A stretch of 44,053 nucleotides of DNA from Coriobacteriia bacterium (GTDB taxonomy: Bacteria > Actinomycetota > Coriobacteriia > Anaerosomatales > PALSA-660), in assembly GCA_025361445.1 (NCBI GenBank), contig JANYLP010000015.1, positions 1 through 44,053 on the forward strand, written 5' to 3'. The notes under the pieces are model-generated. The model was not told the DNA's origin and did not search any database. It saw nothing but the letters and a program-made list of their open reading frames with translations. A program made the translations under genes and the position numbers. Positions 5,412 through 37,003 of the stretch are shown here, piece after piece. Numbering within the stretch: the stretch's first letter is position 1; each line of letters starts with the position of its first letter.

Positions 5412-6212
5412 TCAGTAGCTCCCCTCGGGCACGATGCCTTGACGAAGTGTTCGCAGCGTCCGTCGCAGCAGACGCGATACCTGCATCTGCGAGATACCCA
5501 ACTTCTCCGCGATCTCGGTCTGGGTCAGTCCCTCGAAGAACCGCAGATAGAGCACACGCTGCTCCTGCGGCCCGACGGCCTTGAGTGCGGCTGTCAGGAC
5601 CGCGCGGTCGTCGACCACGCTCAGCAGCTTGTCGTCGTGGCCGATGTACTCGAGTATCGAGAACGACTCGGAACCGTCGCTGGTCCGGTCCGTCTCCAGT
5701 GAGACGAAGTTGTACGCGTCGAACGTCTCGAACGCCTCGAGGACGTCGTCGGGAGTCACACCGAGGTACTCGGCTATCTCGGGCACCATGGGCGAACGCT
5801 GCAGCTTGGACGTCAGCGCGTCGACGGCCTGATTGACCTTGAACGAGAGTTCCTGGAGCCGCCTCGGGACCTTGACGGCCCAACCCTTGTCGCGGAAGTG
5901 GCGCTTGATCTCCCCCACGATCGTGGGCGTCGCGTAGGTCGTGAACTCGACCTCACGCTCGATGTCGAAGCGGTCGACCGCCTTGATCAGCCCGATCGTG
6001 CCGACCTGGATGAGGTCGTCCACCGGCTCGCCGCGGTTGCGGAAGCGGCTCGCAAGGTACTTCACGAGGTTCAGGTACATCTCGACGAGCTCGTCGCGTG
6101 CGGCCTCGTCCCCGTTGAGGCGGTAGGCGACGAACAGCTCGTGAGTGAGCTGCTTGTCCCACACGAGCCTCCGGGAAGGCCGGGTGGTGCGTCGTCGGGG
6201 CGTGATCGCCAC
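5412..6212 (-). CDS. RNA polymerase sigma factor, SigB/SigF (group 3) family
   Basis: This is a 266-residue sigma-70 family protein. Region 2 includes DLIQVGTIGLIKAVDRFD and the -10-reading segment FTTYATPTIVGEIKRHFRD. Region 3 includes VPEIAEYLGVTPDDVLEA, and region 4 has the helix-turn-helix LTQTEIAEKLGISQMQVSRL. Lack of region 1.1 and overall similarity place it with the SigB/SigF/WhiG general-stress or developmental factors. It lies 5 bases after the RsbW-like gene, the classic anti-sigma-then-sigma arrangement, and 2 bases before the permease. Its regulon cannot be read from the window. Confidence 0.93.
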   Translation of the reverse strand: MAITPRRRTTRPSRRLVWDKQLTHELFVAYRLNGDEAARDELVEMYLNLVKYLASRFRNRGEPVDDLIQVGTIGLIKAVDRFDIEREVEFTTYATPTIVGEIKRHFRDKGWAVKVPRRLQELSFKVNQAVDALTSKLQRSPMVPEIAEYLGVTPDDVLEAFETFDAYNFVSLETDRTSDGSESFSILEYIGHDDKLLSVVDDRAVLTAALKAVGPQEQRVLYLRFFEGLTQTEIAEKLGISQMQVSRLLRRTLRTLRQGIVPEGSY

Positions 6213-33248: not shown

Positions 33249-34322
33249 CTAGAACAGACCGCCCTGACCCTCCGCGGCACCCCCGGGAAGCTTGAGCCCG
33301 AGGTGCTCATAGGCGCGCGGGGTCGCCTGGCGGCCCTTGGGCGTACGCATGATGAACCCGAGCTGGAGCAGGAACGGCTCGTAGACATCCTCGAGCGTGT
33401 CCGGCTCCTCACCCACGGAGGCGGCGAGTGTCCCGAGGCCGACAGGCTTGCCCGAGAACTTCGTCGTCAGCGTCTCGAGTATCCGCACATCCATCTTGTC
33501 GAGACCGAGATGATCGACTTCGAAGAAGGCCAGCGCCTCGGCCGCGATGTCTTCCGTCACATGACCGCTGTGGCGGACCTGTGCGTAGTCGCGCACCCGC
33601 TTGAGCAGGCGGTTAGCCAGGCGTGGCGTCCCGCGGCCTCGACGTGCGATCTCGGCCGCTCCCGCCTCATCGATCTGCACACCGAGGATCCCGGCAGAAC
33701 GTCGAACGATCGCCTCGAGATCCTCGGTCGCATAGTAGTCGAGGCGGAACGACATCCCGAACCGGTCGCGCAGAGGGCCGGTGAGCAAGCCCGTCCGGGT
33801 CGTGGCACCGACGAGCGTGAACCGCGGGATGTCGAGCCGCAGCGAGCGGGCGGCGGGGCCCTTGCCGATGACGACGTCAAGGACGAAGTCCTCCATGGCC
33901 GGGTAGAGGACCTCTTCCACCGAGTGGTTCAGCCGGTGTATCTCATCGATGAACAGCACGTCGCGCTCTTCGAGGTTCGTGAGTATCGCCGCGAGGTCGC
34001 CGGGCCGCTCGATCGCGGGGCCGCTGGTCGTGCGCATCGTCACGCCGAGCTCGTTGGCGATGACGCCCGCGAGCGTCGTCTTGCCCAGCCCGGGAGGGCC
34101 GGAGAGCAGCACGTGGTCGAGCGGCTCGTTGCGGCCCGACGCCGCCTCGATCAGCACGGAAAGCGACTCCTTGACCTTCGCCTGCCCGAGGTACTCCGAG
34201 ATGCGCTTGGGCCGCAGCGAGCGGTCGATCTCAAGATCGTCGGTCGTGTAGCGGGCCGAAACCAGGCGCTCGTCGGCGTCCCCCTCGCCCGCGGTCCACT
34301 CCGATGAGACGGGTTCGGTCAT
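33249..34322 (-). CDS. ruvB: Holliday junction branch migration ATPase RuvB
   Basis: This 357-residue AAA+ motor drives branch migration with RuvA. Motifs: [18 protein letters not shown], Walker [16 protein letters not shown], Walker [12 protein letters not shown], sensor 1 [20 protein letters not shown] (with the arginine finger region), and the winged-helix part [16 protein letters not shown] and [20 protein letters not shown]. Its ATG shares one base with the ruvA stop, so the two are coupled. Confidence 0.97.
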
Positions 34323-34903
34323 CAGCGGCCTCCCAAAGCCTTGAGGGCCAGCCGGAGCAACTGCTCCGCGGTCGCACCCTCATCTGCATCGCGCAGCGCC
34401 GCTGCCGCCTCGACAGCGGTGAAGCCCATGGACAGAAGCGCGTCGCGCGCCTCAGCGACGGCCGCTGCGCGCGGACCGCGTGCTCCTGCGGCCAGGTCCG
34501 GCAGATCGAGCTTGTCCTTGAGCTCCAGCGCGAGGCGCTGGGCCGTCTTCTTGCCCACGCCCGGCACGCTTGAGAGCACGGCGACGTCATCCGACGCGAC
34601 CGCCGATCGCAAGGCGTCCGGCCGCAGGGCCGAGAGCACGGCGAGCGCCACCTTCGGTCCGACCCCGCTCACTCCGATCAGGGTCTCGAAGAGCACGCGC
34701 TCGTCGTCGTTCTCGAACCCGTAGAGCGTGAGCTCGTCCTCACGCACGTGGAGGTACGTATGGACAGTGACGCTGTCACCCTCCGCGGGGAGCGACGACA
34801 GCGACCGCGTCGACATGAGCAGTCGGTAGCCGACTCCACCGACATCCAGAAGAGCCGAACCGGCGCTCTTTCCCGCGACCCTGCCGGTCAGAAACGCGAT
34901 CAC
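34322..34903 (-). CDS. ruvA: Holliday junction branch migration protein RuvA
   Basis: The protein has 193 residues and the three RuvA domains. The OB fold reads [12 protein letters not shown] and [17 protein letters not shown]. The helix-hairpin-helix pair is [20 protein letters not shown] and [22 protein letters not shown] flexible linker precedes domain III ([19 protein letters not shown]), which regulates RuvB. The GTG at 34903 overlaps the ruvC stop by 4 bases (GTGA). Confidence 0.97.
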
Positions 34904-35409
34904 GACGCCTCCTTTCCGCGCGAGCGAGCGCGCGCGATCCGCTGGTTCGCATGACAGATCGCGGCCGCGAGGGCGTCCGCGGCGTGGTCGGGCTTGGGAT
35001 CGTGGTCGAGCGCGAGGATCGTTCGCACCATGTACGTGACCTGCGCCTTGTCAGCGGAACCGGAGCCGACGACGGCAAGCTTGATCTCACCGGGGCCGTA
35101 CTCGCCCACAGTGAGTGCGGCATCGGCGACAGCAACCAGAGCCGCGCCGCGGGCCTGGCCCGTAGCCATCGCGGTCGCGACGTTGCGGTTGAAGTAGATG
35201 TTCTCGAGCGCAGCCTCGGATGGCCGGTGACGCACGATCACGTCGGTCAGGCCGTCGCGCACCGTCTTGCATCGACGCGCCAGGTCATCCTGGGAGTTGC
35301 TCCGGATGCATCCGTACGCCAGACAGCGGAACCGCGGGCCATCGACTTCCACGACCCCCCACCCCGTGTTCGCGAGGCCGGGGTCGATCCCGAGTATCAC
35401 CACAGGCAC
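34900..35409 (-). CDS. ruvC: Holliday junction endodeoxyribonuclease RuvC
   Basis: This 169-residue resolvase has catalytic residues Asp9 (ILGIDPGLANTG), Glu69 (AALENIYFNRN), and His142 with Asp145 (KPDHAADALAAAICH). The His-x-x-Asp pair is the Thermus-type version rather than the Asp-Asp of E. coli. The GTG at 35409 starts 4 bases after GGGGGAG; the frame extends to 35442 but those codons overlap the LexA site. It leads ruvC-ruvA-ruvB and is controlled by the operator-promoter at 35436-35478. Confidence 0.96.
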   Translation of the reverse strand: MPVVILGIDPGLANTGWGVVEVDGPRFRCLAYGCIRSNSQDDLARRCKTVRDGLTDVIVRHRPSEAALENIYFNRNVATAMATGQARGAALVAVADAALTVGEYGPGEIKLAVVGSGSADKAQVTYMVRTILALDHDPKPDHAADALAAAICHANQRIARARSRGKEAS

Positions 35410-35435
35410 GAGACTCCCCCGCAGACGTCGGCAAT

Positions 35436-35449
35436 CGAACATATGTTCA
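35436..35449 (-). promoter_or_regulatory. LexA (SOS) box in front of ruvCAB
   Basis: The 14 bases CGAACATATGTTCA contain the perfect dyad GAAC-N4-GTTC, the LexA box of Gram-positive and actinobacterial type. It lies between the -10 box and the expected transcription start of ruvC, where bound LexA would block RNA polymerase. I saw no second copy elsewhere in the window. Confidence 0.8.
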
Positions 35450-35478
35450 GTCTACGGCACGGCACCGACACAAAGCAA
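35449..35478 (-). promoter_or_regulatory. ruvC promoter
   Basis: On the minus strand TTGCTT (35478-35473) and TAGACT (35454-35449) are separated by 18 bases. The -10 abuts the LexA box by one base. The leader would be about 33 bases. The -35 lies in the tail of the yebC terminator, so the two units are packed together. Confidence 0.6.
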
Positions 35479-35479
35479 A

Positions 35480-35512
35480 GCGAAGGGCGCCCGTCGCACG
35501 GGCGCCCTTCGC
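35480..35512 (-). terminator. Rho-independent terminator after yebC
   Basis: A perfect 15-base-pair stem (35480-35494 with 35498-35512, GCGAAGGGCGCCCGT and its complement) with a 3-base loop is followed on the minus strand by TTTGCTTTGT. It starts 24 bases after the yebC stop and separates pdxST-yebC from ruvCAB. Confidence 0.85.
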
Positions 35513-35535
35513 GCACACCGGAATACGGTCGAGGA

Positions 35536-36294
35536 TCAGTCGGCGTCGAGCGCTGCTGCGATCTCCTCTGTCATCTCCATGTTGTGGTAGACCTCCTGGA
35601 CGTCGTCGCTGTCCTCGAGGTTGTCGATGAGCCGCATGACCTTGCGCACCGTCTCGAGCTTCACCGCGACCGGCGTCAGAGCGCGCATCGACCACTCGGC
35701 GCCCTCCACTTCGATCCCGGCCGCCTCGAGCGCGTTCTTCACGCTCATGAGATCGTTCGCCGCCGTCACGACGATGAACTCCTCGTCGTTGTCCTCGAGA
35801 TCCTCCCCGCCGGCCTCCATGACCGCCATGAGGAGTTCTTCTTCGTCCGGAGCGCCGGCCTTGGCGACCACGATCTCACCGCGGCGCTCGAACTGGAACG
35901 CGACGGATCCGGTCGCACCGAGCGAACCGCCAGCGCGCGTGAACGCAGCACGGACGTCAGCGGCGGTGCGGTTACGGTTGTCCGTCAGCGCTTCCACGTA
36001 GATGGCCGTTCCGCCGGAGCCGTAGCCCTCGTAGATGACCTCTTCGTAGTTCGCGCCGGCGCTGGCGCTGAATGCCTTGTCGATCGCGGTCTGGATCTTG
36101 TCTTTCGGAAGCGAATAGCCCTTCGCCTTCACGATGGCGGCGGCCAGTGAGGCGTTGTTCTCAGGCTTGGGGTCGCCGCCGGTCTTCGCGGCGACGGTGA
36201 TGATGCGCGCGAGCTTGCTGAAGAGTTTGGATCGCTTGGCATCCACAGCACCCTTGCGGTGCTTGGTGGTCGCCCACTTGGAGTGTCCCGACAT
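35536..36294 (-). CDS. yebC: YebC/PmpR family protein (TACO1-type)
   Basis: The protein has 252 residues, the usual family length, beginning MSGHSKWATTKHRKGAVDAK. Further signatures are LPKDKIQTAIDKAFSAS, YEEVIYEGYGSGGTAIYVEA, TRAGGSLGATGSVAFQFER and NLEDSDDVQEVYHN. The family was named as transcription regulators, while recent work links members to relief of ribosome stalling at proline stretches. ATG 36294 is chosen by homology; the frame runs on to 36360 through the leader hairpin. yebC-ruvC-ruvA-ruvB order is widely conserved. Confidence 0.95.
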   Translation of the reverse strand: MSGHSKWATTKHRKGAVDAKRSKLFSKLARIITVAAKTGGDPKPENNASLAAAIVKAKGYSLPKDKIQTAIDKAFSASAGANYEEVIYEGYGSGGTAIYVEALTDNRNRTAADVRAAFTRAGGSLGATGSVAFQFERRGEIVVAKAGAPDEEELLMAVMEAGGEDLEDNDEEFIVVTAANDLMSVKNALEAAGIEVEGAEWSMRALTPVAVKLETVRKVMRLIDNLEDSDDVQEVYHNMEMTEEIAAALDAD

Positions 36295-36321
36295 GCGCGG
36301 CGCCTCTCTCTCTTCTTCGAA

Positions 36322-36341
36322 CGCGCGCATGCGTGCGCGCG
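36322..36341 (-). repeat. Perfect GC inverted repeat in the yebC leader
   Basis: CGCGCGCA and TGCGCGCG flank TGCG, giving a 20-base alternating purine-pyrimidine palindrome between the putative -10 box and the yebC start. It can form a stable RNA hairpin or Z-DNA; compare the alaS leader. Confidence 0.45.
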
Positions 36342-36359
36342 GGAGGATGACCGTCGACA

Positions 36360-36365
36360 AGGATA
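36360..36365 (-). promoter_or_regulatory. Putative -10 box for yebC
   Basis: The minus strand reads TATCCT in GGGTATCCTTGTCG, 66 bases before the yebC start and 51 after the pdxT stop. The match is moderate and read-through from pdxST is equally possible. Confidence 0.35.
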
Positions 36366-36415
36366 CCCGAACGCGAGCGATGAGGCGGCGCGAGACGCTC
36401 GGTGAGCCGCGGCGA

Positions 36416-37003
36416 CTACGCCCGGGGCGATCCCACGACCTGCTCGACGAACAGCCGGTGTATCCGGGGATCCCCGGTCAGTTCGGGATGGAACGTGGTC
36501 GCCATCAGATCGCCCTCGCGCGCGGCGACGATGCGTCCGGCATGCCGCGCGAGAGCCTCGACGCCTTCTCCGACGCTCTCGATCCACGGTGCGCGGATGA
36601 ACACACCCGTGTAGGGACCGCCCGAAAGCCCGGAGACGTCCAGCCCGACTTCGAACGACTCGGACTGCCGGCCGTAGGCGTTACGCCGAACGGCGATGTC
36701 CATGAGCCCGAGAGTCCGCTGCCCCGGAAGCGCATCCAGCACGCTGCGCGCGAGCAGTATCGCCCCGGCACACGTTCCCCAGATCGCCATTCCCTCTTCG
36801 TGGCGGCGCGCCACGGCCTCGTAGAAGCCGTATGTCTCCATCAACTTGCCGATGGCGGTCGACTCCCCGCCGGGGATGACGAGACCGTCGCAGCCGTCCA
36901 GTTGCTCGGGCAACCGGACCGCGAGCGCAGTCACACCCAGCGCCTCGAGAGAGACGATGTGCTCGCGAAAGGCTCCCTGCAGCGCGAGGACGCCGACCTT
37001 CAC
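36416..37003 (-). CDS. pdxT: Pyridoxal 5'-phosphate synthase glutaminase subunit PdxT
   Basis: This 195-residue class I amidotransferase frees ammonia from glutamine for PdxS. It has VGVLALQGAFREH, the oxyanion-site LVIPGGESTAIGKLM, the nucleophile cysteine in IWGTCAGAILLAR, and the His-Glu of the triad in TTFHPELTGDPRIH. GTG 37003 lies one base after the pdxS stop, so the two subunits are translated together. Confidence 0.96.
   Translation of the reverse strand: MKVGVLALQGAFREHIVSLEALGVTALAVRLPEQLDGCDGLVIPGGESTAIGKLMETYGFYEAVARRHEEGMAIWGTCAGAILLARSVLDALPGQRTLGLMDIAVRRNAYGRQSESFEVGLDVSGLSGGPYTGVFIRAPWIESVGEGVEALARHAGRIVAAREGDLMATTFHPELTGDPRIHRLFVEQVVGSPRA

Follow-up and report, generated by a model that had tools for sequence, protein, structure and literature searches.

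RESULTS

The ruvCAB locus and its upstream region

The window, that is, the whole stretch of 44,053 nucleotides analyzed here, belongs to the genome assembly of an uncultured Coriobacteriia bacterium, which comprises 1.57 Mb in 115 contigs and is 91% complete. On its minus strand, family models identified ruvC (34900..35409), ruvA (34322..34903) and ruvB (33249..34322), and the three reading frames overlap. The ruvC gene opens with a GTG at 35409, a second GTG at 35403 being the position common to most relatives, and a Shine-Dalgarno-like GGGGGAG is present in the sequence at 35414..35420 (minus strand). The upstream neighbor on the same strand, yebC (35536..36294, family model), is ended by an intrinsic terminator (35480..35512, minus strand) with a 15-pair stem, 12 pairs of which are G-C, followed by TTTGCTTTGT. 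The first-pass annotation of this DNA had stated that a strong terminator cuts yebC off from ruvCAB. This genome does show the pattern; among 55 genomes of the order, however, only 3 had a perfect stem of at least 8 pairs, indicating that the separation from yebC has not been conserved.

Between the terminator and ruvC, the minus strand carries a -10 hexamer, TAGACT (35449..35454), which adjoins a LexA operator core, GAACATATGTTC (35437..35448). The core lies inside a 16-base LexA site, CTGAACATATGTTCGA (35435-35450), and the last two bases of TAGACT are outer bases of this site as well. The GAAC-N4-GTTC dyad overlaps the ruvC promoter, as in a LexA-repressed SOS promoter, and its axis falls between 35442 and 35443. 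The predicted transcription start is the A at 35442 (minus strand), beside the dyad axis; being the seventh base after the -10, it lies at a distance common for start sites. Further upstream, in the T-rich tail of the terminator, is TTGCTT (35473..35478, minus strand), a weak -35-like hexamer that matches TTGACA at 3 of 6 positions. Both the letters and the spacing recorded earlier, namely the dyad beside TAGACT with TTGCTT 18 bases upstream, before ruvC, were confirmed on the minus strand. The main upstream element, however, is probably another than TTGCTT, which had been taken as the -35: its match is weak, a consensus scan of 35300-36500 reported no sigma-70-type promoter, and the -26 element described below fits better.

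The LexA box had also been called perfect, which holds for the 12-base core only. Measured against CGAAC-N4-GTTCG, the site has T for C on the promoter side and retains G on the other, and it equals the string CGAACRNNYGTTCG bar one outer position. The same T for C was found in all 55 box-bearing genomes of the order. The outer C and G are preferred and not strictly defining, since functional sites are known that deviate from them (PMC9380542, in part).

Conservation of the LexA box before ruvC

By its letters alone, the core is within what chance may produce. The 12-mer occurs twice in the window compared to 0.67 expected, a count reached by 19 of 100 shuffles, and 25 times in the genome compared to 20 for the reversed pattern, most of the 25 lying within coding frames or before genes left unnamed. 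The other GAAC-N4-GTTC in the window (5841-5852) lies within open frames and is probably a chance match. It is conservation that makes the ruvC site significant, and it was on conservation, not on the 12-mer count, that a chance origin of the core was rejected.

The order set comprised 61 genomes, 56 of which had a ruvC match, the genome of the window included. In 55 of the 56, an exact GAAC-N4-GTTC precedes the aligned start of ruvC by 16 to 45 bases, compared to no exact hit and one with a single mismatch for the reversed-pattern control. The sole exception (L082, genome G032) lacks a LexA box; its ruvC starts about 10 bases after the yebC stop, leaving no room for a promoter. In a sample of the phylum, ruvC was matched in 145 of 149 genomes, and 143 were examined after removal of two already counted. 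The exact core was present in 51 and the core with at most one mismatch in 77, compared to 0 and 3 for the reversed control; among these 143, two genomes (G199, counted among the 51, and G177) were placed by extrapolation, the ruvC start having been missed, and two further genomes had fewer than 100 bases upstream. Within the same class but outside the order (n = 10), the core was exact in six genomes and had GTTT for GTTC in four.

All 55 ruvC sites of the order read CT-GAAC-RTAY-GTTC-GR, with the center ATAT in 39, ATAC in 10 and GTAT in 6. By comparison, the recA boxes of 31 same-order genomes had eight different centers (RTAY in 7 of 31), and the 57 exact lexA boxes had 23 centers (RTAY in 12 of the boxes, by hand count from the list), indicating that the center before ruvC is more constrained than LexA binding would seem to require. 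In 52 of the 55, the last base of the -10 pattern TANNNT directly adjoins the core, whereas in the remaining three, all of one genus, it lies 6 bases further upstream. Considered together with the distance to the predicted start site, the tight center suggests that RTAY also serves as an initiator. However, the box letters CT and RTAY persist in the genus with the displaced -10 although the promoter has moved, which counts against these letters being kept for promoter reasons. The abutment of -10 and box recurs far from the order: in three genomes outside the class (L249, L259 and L276, family label f26), TAGACTGAAC-N4-GTTCGA stands before ruvC, with no TGTC upstream.

LexA-type sites before lexA, recA and other genes

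The genome encodes both LexA and RecA. Its lexA promoter carries the same core three times in exact form, and the recA promoter also carries the core; the absence of lexA, or a different dyad before lexA and recA, which the first-pass annotation had named as evidence against its assignment, is not what this genome holds. The genome scan that it had proposed returned exactly five exact CGAACRNNYGTTCG sites, all in front of SOS-type genes: lexA (two sites), recA, a DUF6504-DnaE-type pair and, at a distance of 29 bases, a UvrD/PcrA-like helicase. At L018:2733-6500 (contig C82), CGAACATATGTTCG precedes the genes for the DUF6504 protein and the DnaE-type polymerase. Neither the error-prone model nor the best alpha-subunit model gives this polymerase a score above its cut-off; we regard it as a putative error-prone polymerase, and the pair is likely an SOS mutagenesis cassette.

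Across the order there were 59 lexA and 57 recA matches, and 31 promoters of each (those of the best-scoring 30 matches and of the window's genome) were examined. In this selection, the exact core was present in 31 of 31 lexA and 31 of 31 recA promoters, and every one of the 31 lexA promoters also had one box with GTTTG for GTTCG. The TTG of this box is the beginning of a -35-like hexamer, which TANNNT follows at a distance of 17-18 bases. The lexA and ruvC promoters are alike in that the departure from box symmetry falls on a promoter letter. One lexA promoter (L017:3218-3334, contig C11) shows four LexA-like boxes, the third being the GTTTG box and overlapping a -35-like TTGCAC. Elsewhere, at L034:2337-2368 (contig C56, C56:5846), a perfect inverted repeat of 32 bases that contains a LexA-like core precedes a 103-residue frame, for which the family-model search gave no match; a RecA-independent promoter-like motif lies 6 bases upstream of the repeat. 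Overall, we regard LexA control of ruvCAB as well supported, and a LexA site before ruvC is ordinary, as known for actinobacteria.

A PafBC-type motif upstream of the -10

Eight bases before the -10 lies TGTCGGTG (35463..35470, minus strand), which has the form of the -26 element of a RecA-independent (PafBC-type) promoter. The combined string TGTCGGTG-N8-TAGACT (35470-35449) matches exactly the mycobacterial RecA-independent promoter (RecA-NDp) motif, TGTCRgtg-N8-TAnnnT, reportedly described by Gamulin in 2004. In the genome of the window, TGTCRGNG-N8-TANNNT occurs 11 times, compared to once for the reversed control. The genes shortly downstream include ruvC, dnaX, priA and tilS, and at least two of the 11 motifs have no convincing gene start nearby. 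The motifs before dnaX, priA and tilS lie at L400, L401 and L392, and that of priA recurs in several relatives. In 41 genomes, TGTCRGTG-N8-TANNNT was found 141 times, compared to 10 times for the reversed control.

Before recA, the looser TGTCR-N11-TANNNT was present in 26 of the 31 selected promoters (best-scoring 30 and own genome), and in 18 of these it preceded the LexA box by 77-78 bases; one of the five without it has only 76 bases upstream. The recA promoter of the window's genome reads TGTCAGTC-N8-TACGGT. Before ruvC, the looser motif was found in 16 of 56 genomes, compared to a mean of 0.1 and a maximum of 1 in 100 shuffles, which kept base composition only. The stricter TGTCRGTG-N8-TANNNT occurred in 5 of the 56, compared to a shuffle mean of 0.01, four of the five being among the eight members of the window's family. 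When at least four of the five TGTCR letters were scored by offset, -22 had hits in 20 of 55 promoters and -28 in five, and no other offset from -45 to -9 exceeded six. The -28 peak includes the three promoters with a displaced -10, in which TGTCR has moved with the -10. Unless some protein requires both elements, such a fixed spacing between TGTCR and -10 is difficult to account for.

A TTTAC-like -35 (at least four of five letters at -29) was present in 24 of the 55 ruvC promoters: six had both TGTCR and the TTTAC-like -35, ten had TGTCR alone, eighteen had the -35 alone, and 21 had neither by these criteria. In 40 of the order's 56 ruvC promoters even the loose PafBC motif is missing, and many of these have a TTTAC-like -35 instead, indicating that the PafBC arm is not universal.

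Candidate PafBC genes

A WYL domain match was found in 58 of the 61 order genomes, and, judging by the coordinates, most genomes have two neighboring matches about 960 bases apart. In the sister genome G003 the pair is complete, with a PafB-like gene followed by a gene matching the PafC HTH model. The window's genome has a whole pafB and shows one WYL match only; pafC begins on the end of pafB, and contig C8 ends 40 codons into it. For both the PafB-like protein of this genome and the PafC-like protein of G003, the best solved-structure match was PafBC (6sj9), and an NCBIfam search gave no match for either.

DISCUSSION

A ruvCAB promoter with two probable damage inputs

From the layout and conservation observed at this site, we consider it probable that 35435-35470 is one promoter with two DNA-damage inputs, driving ruvC-ruvA-ruvB, activated by PafBC and repressed by LexA; binding, activation, cleavage and start base are modeled on mycobacteria and on the SOS response in general. 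RNA polymerase would use TAGACT as the -10, and PafBC would read TGTCGGTG as a -26 element instead of a -35. A LexA dimer would sit on GAACATATGTTC, touching the end of the -10 and centered on the predicted start base, so that bound LexA would block polymerase. After damage, single-stranded DNA would activate PafBC and, via RecA, would make LexA cleave itself, and both events would yield more RuvCAB. Besides LexA, a second damage input very probably acts on this promoter. The earlier description of ruvCAB as SOS-induced as one unit is retained in part: the overlapping frames and the LexA control agree with it, whereas SOS as the single control is not supported, SOS induction being at best half of the control. 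A tentative extension, toward which we lean less than against, is a fused two-signal gate in which the PafBC-type -10 runs into the LexA operator with the start base at the dyad axis, RTAY is fixed as operator and initiator together, both alarms are needed to reach full output, and the joining of -10 and operator goes back as far as the order itself.

The plainest alternative is that LexA acts alone on an ordinary sigma-70-type promoter, TTGCTT-N18-TAGACT, and that TGTCGGTG arose by chance. We judge this unlikely. Although the LexA box (55 of 56) is far better conserved than TGTCR (16 of 56), 40 of 56 relatives do without the PafBC motif at ruvC, and a rightly placed TTTAC-like -35 is seen in 24 of 55, chance does not explain why TGTCRGTG-N8-TANNNT, with an expectation near zero (0.01 of 56), appears in 5 of 56, nor its enrichment of 141 over 10 genome-wide; TTGCTT, moreover, has only three of the six letters of TTGACA, and no consensus promoter was reported there.

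The opposite possibility, that PafBC alone matters and the LexA box is a relic, seems very improbable to us. A relic would drift, whereas the core and the RTAY center hold in all 55 box-bearing genomes, more strictly than in the recA and lexA boxes. According to excerpts of PMC8151990, RuvA, RuvB and RuvC are absent from a Mycobacterium tuberculosis recA deletion and RuvC is also lost on pafBC knock-down, so both arms seem to matter there; on the other side, the title of Dawson 2010, listed among the references of the same paper, speaks of an induction of M. tuberculosis ruvC that is RecA-independent despite an appropriately placed SOS box, which would suggest a relic in that species, and the match of the present site is weakened by the outer T that replaces C in one half. 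Least credible, and close to negligible, is that the dyad arose as a palindrome by chance or belongs to something else, for example a leaderless start codon. Matches to the 12-mer are not scarce within the window, and the ATG at 35442 does open a 180-residue frame into ruvC; yet 55 of 56 genomes keep the core, the 10 whose center is ATAC have lost the ATG, and the distance from box to start (16 to 45 bases) does not vary in steps of three. A leaderless ATG inside the box was rejected, since no single conserved frame runs from the inner ATG into ruvC.

Comparison with known systems

SOS control of ruvC in actinobacteria and a two-alarm scheme in mycobacteria are already known. To these, our analysis adds a LexA site that hardly varies across an entire order of Coriobacteriia and that overlies a promoter of the PafBC type. 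An SOS box is no proof of SOS-only control. If PafBC works in these bacteria, the second damage response would extend to a class for which no report was found in the open-licence literature. A search of that literature for LexA with Coriobacteri-/Coriobacteriia returned no paper, the parts consulted of the PafBC papers PMC8223512 and PMC6789036, the latter on PafBC structure, do not mention 'Coriobacteri', and the part consulted of the human-gut SOS meta-regulon paper PMC3998124 gave no ruv match.

As excerpted, PMC9380542 gives the LexA motif of Streptomyces venezuelae as tCGAAC-N4-GNNCGa and places ruvC and ruvA in the core regulon; an actinobacterial lexA motif is also treated in PMC2248561, likewise seen in part. 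The system described here resembles the actinobacterial LexA regulon of S. venezuelae and M. tuberculosis both in its motif and in its targets, lexA, recA, ruvC/ruvA and a dnaE2-type polymerase (PMC9380542, in part). It differs from S. venezuelae, whose ruvC box, as listed in the same excerpts, departs from the consensus, whereas here a perfect palindromic core is kept order-wide.

Double control has a precedent in M. tuberculosis ruvC. Genes of mycobacteria that combine an SOS box with a RecA-independent signal have been reported (PMC8223512, in part), and mycobacterial recA has two promoters, P1 (PafBC) and P2 (LexA), according to a portion of PMC5656591. Like such dual genes, ruvC combines the RecA-NDp layout with a LexA box; unlike them, it belongs to the class Coriobacteriia, and its -10 and LexA core abut, whereas recA keeps the two signals apart. 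Excerpts of PMC11804915 and PMC10609372 describe PafBC as reading a -26 element and being activated by single-stranded DNA. The ruvC promoter has the composition expected from sigma adaptation by PafBC, a -26 element plus a -10 with no ordinary -35 needed (same excerpts), and, unlike in those studies, it is known here from sequence alone.
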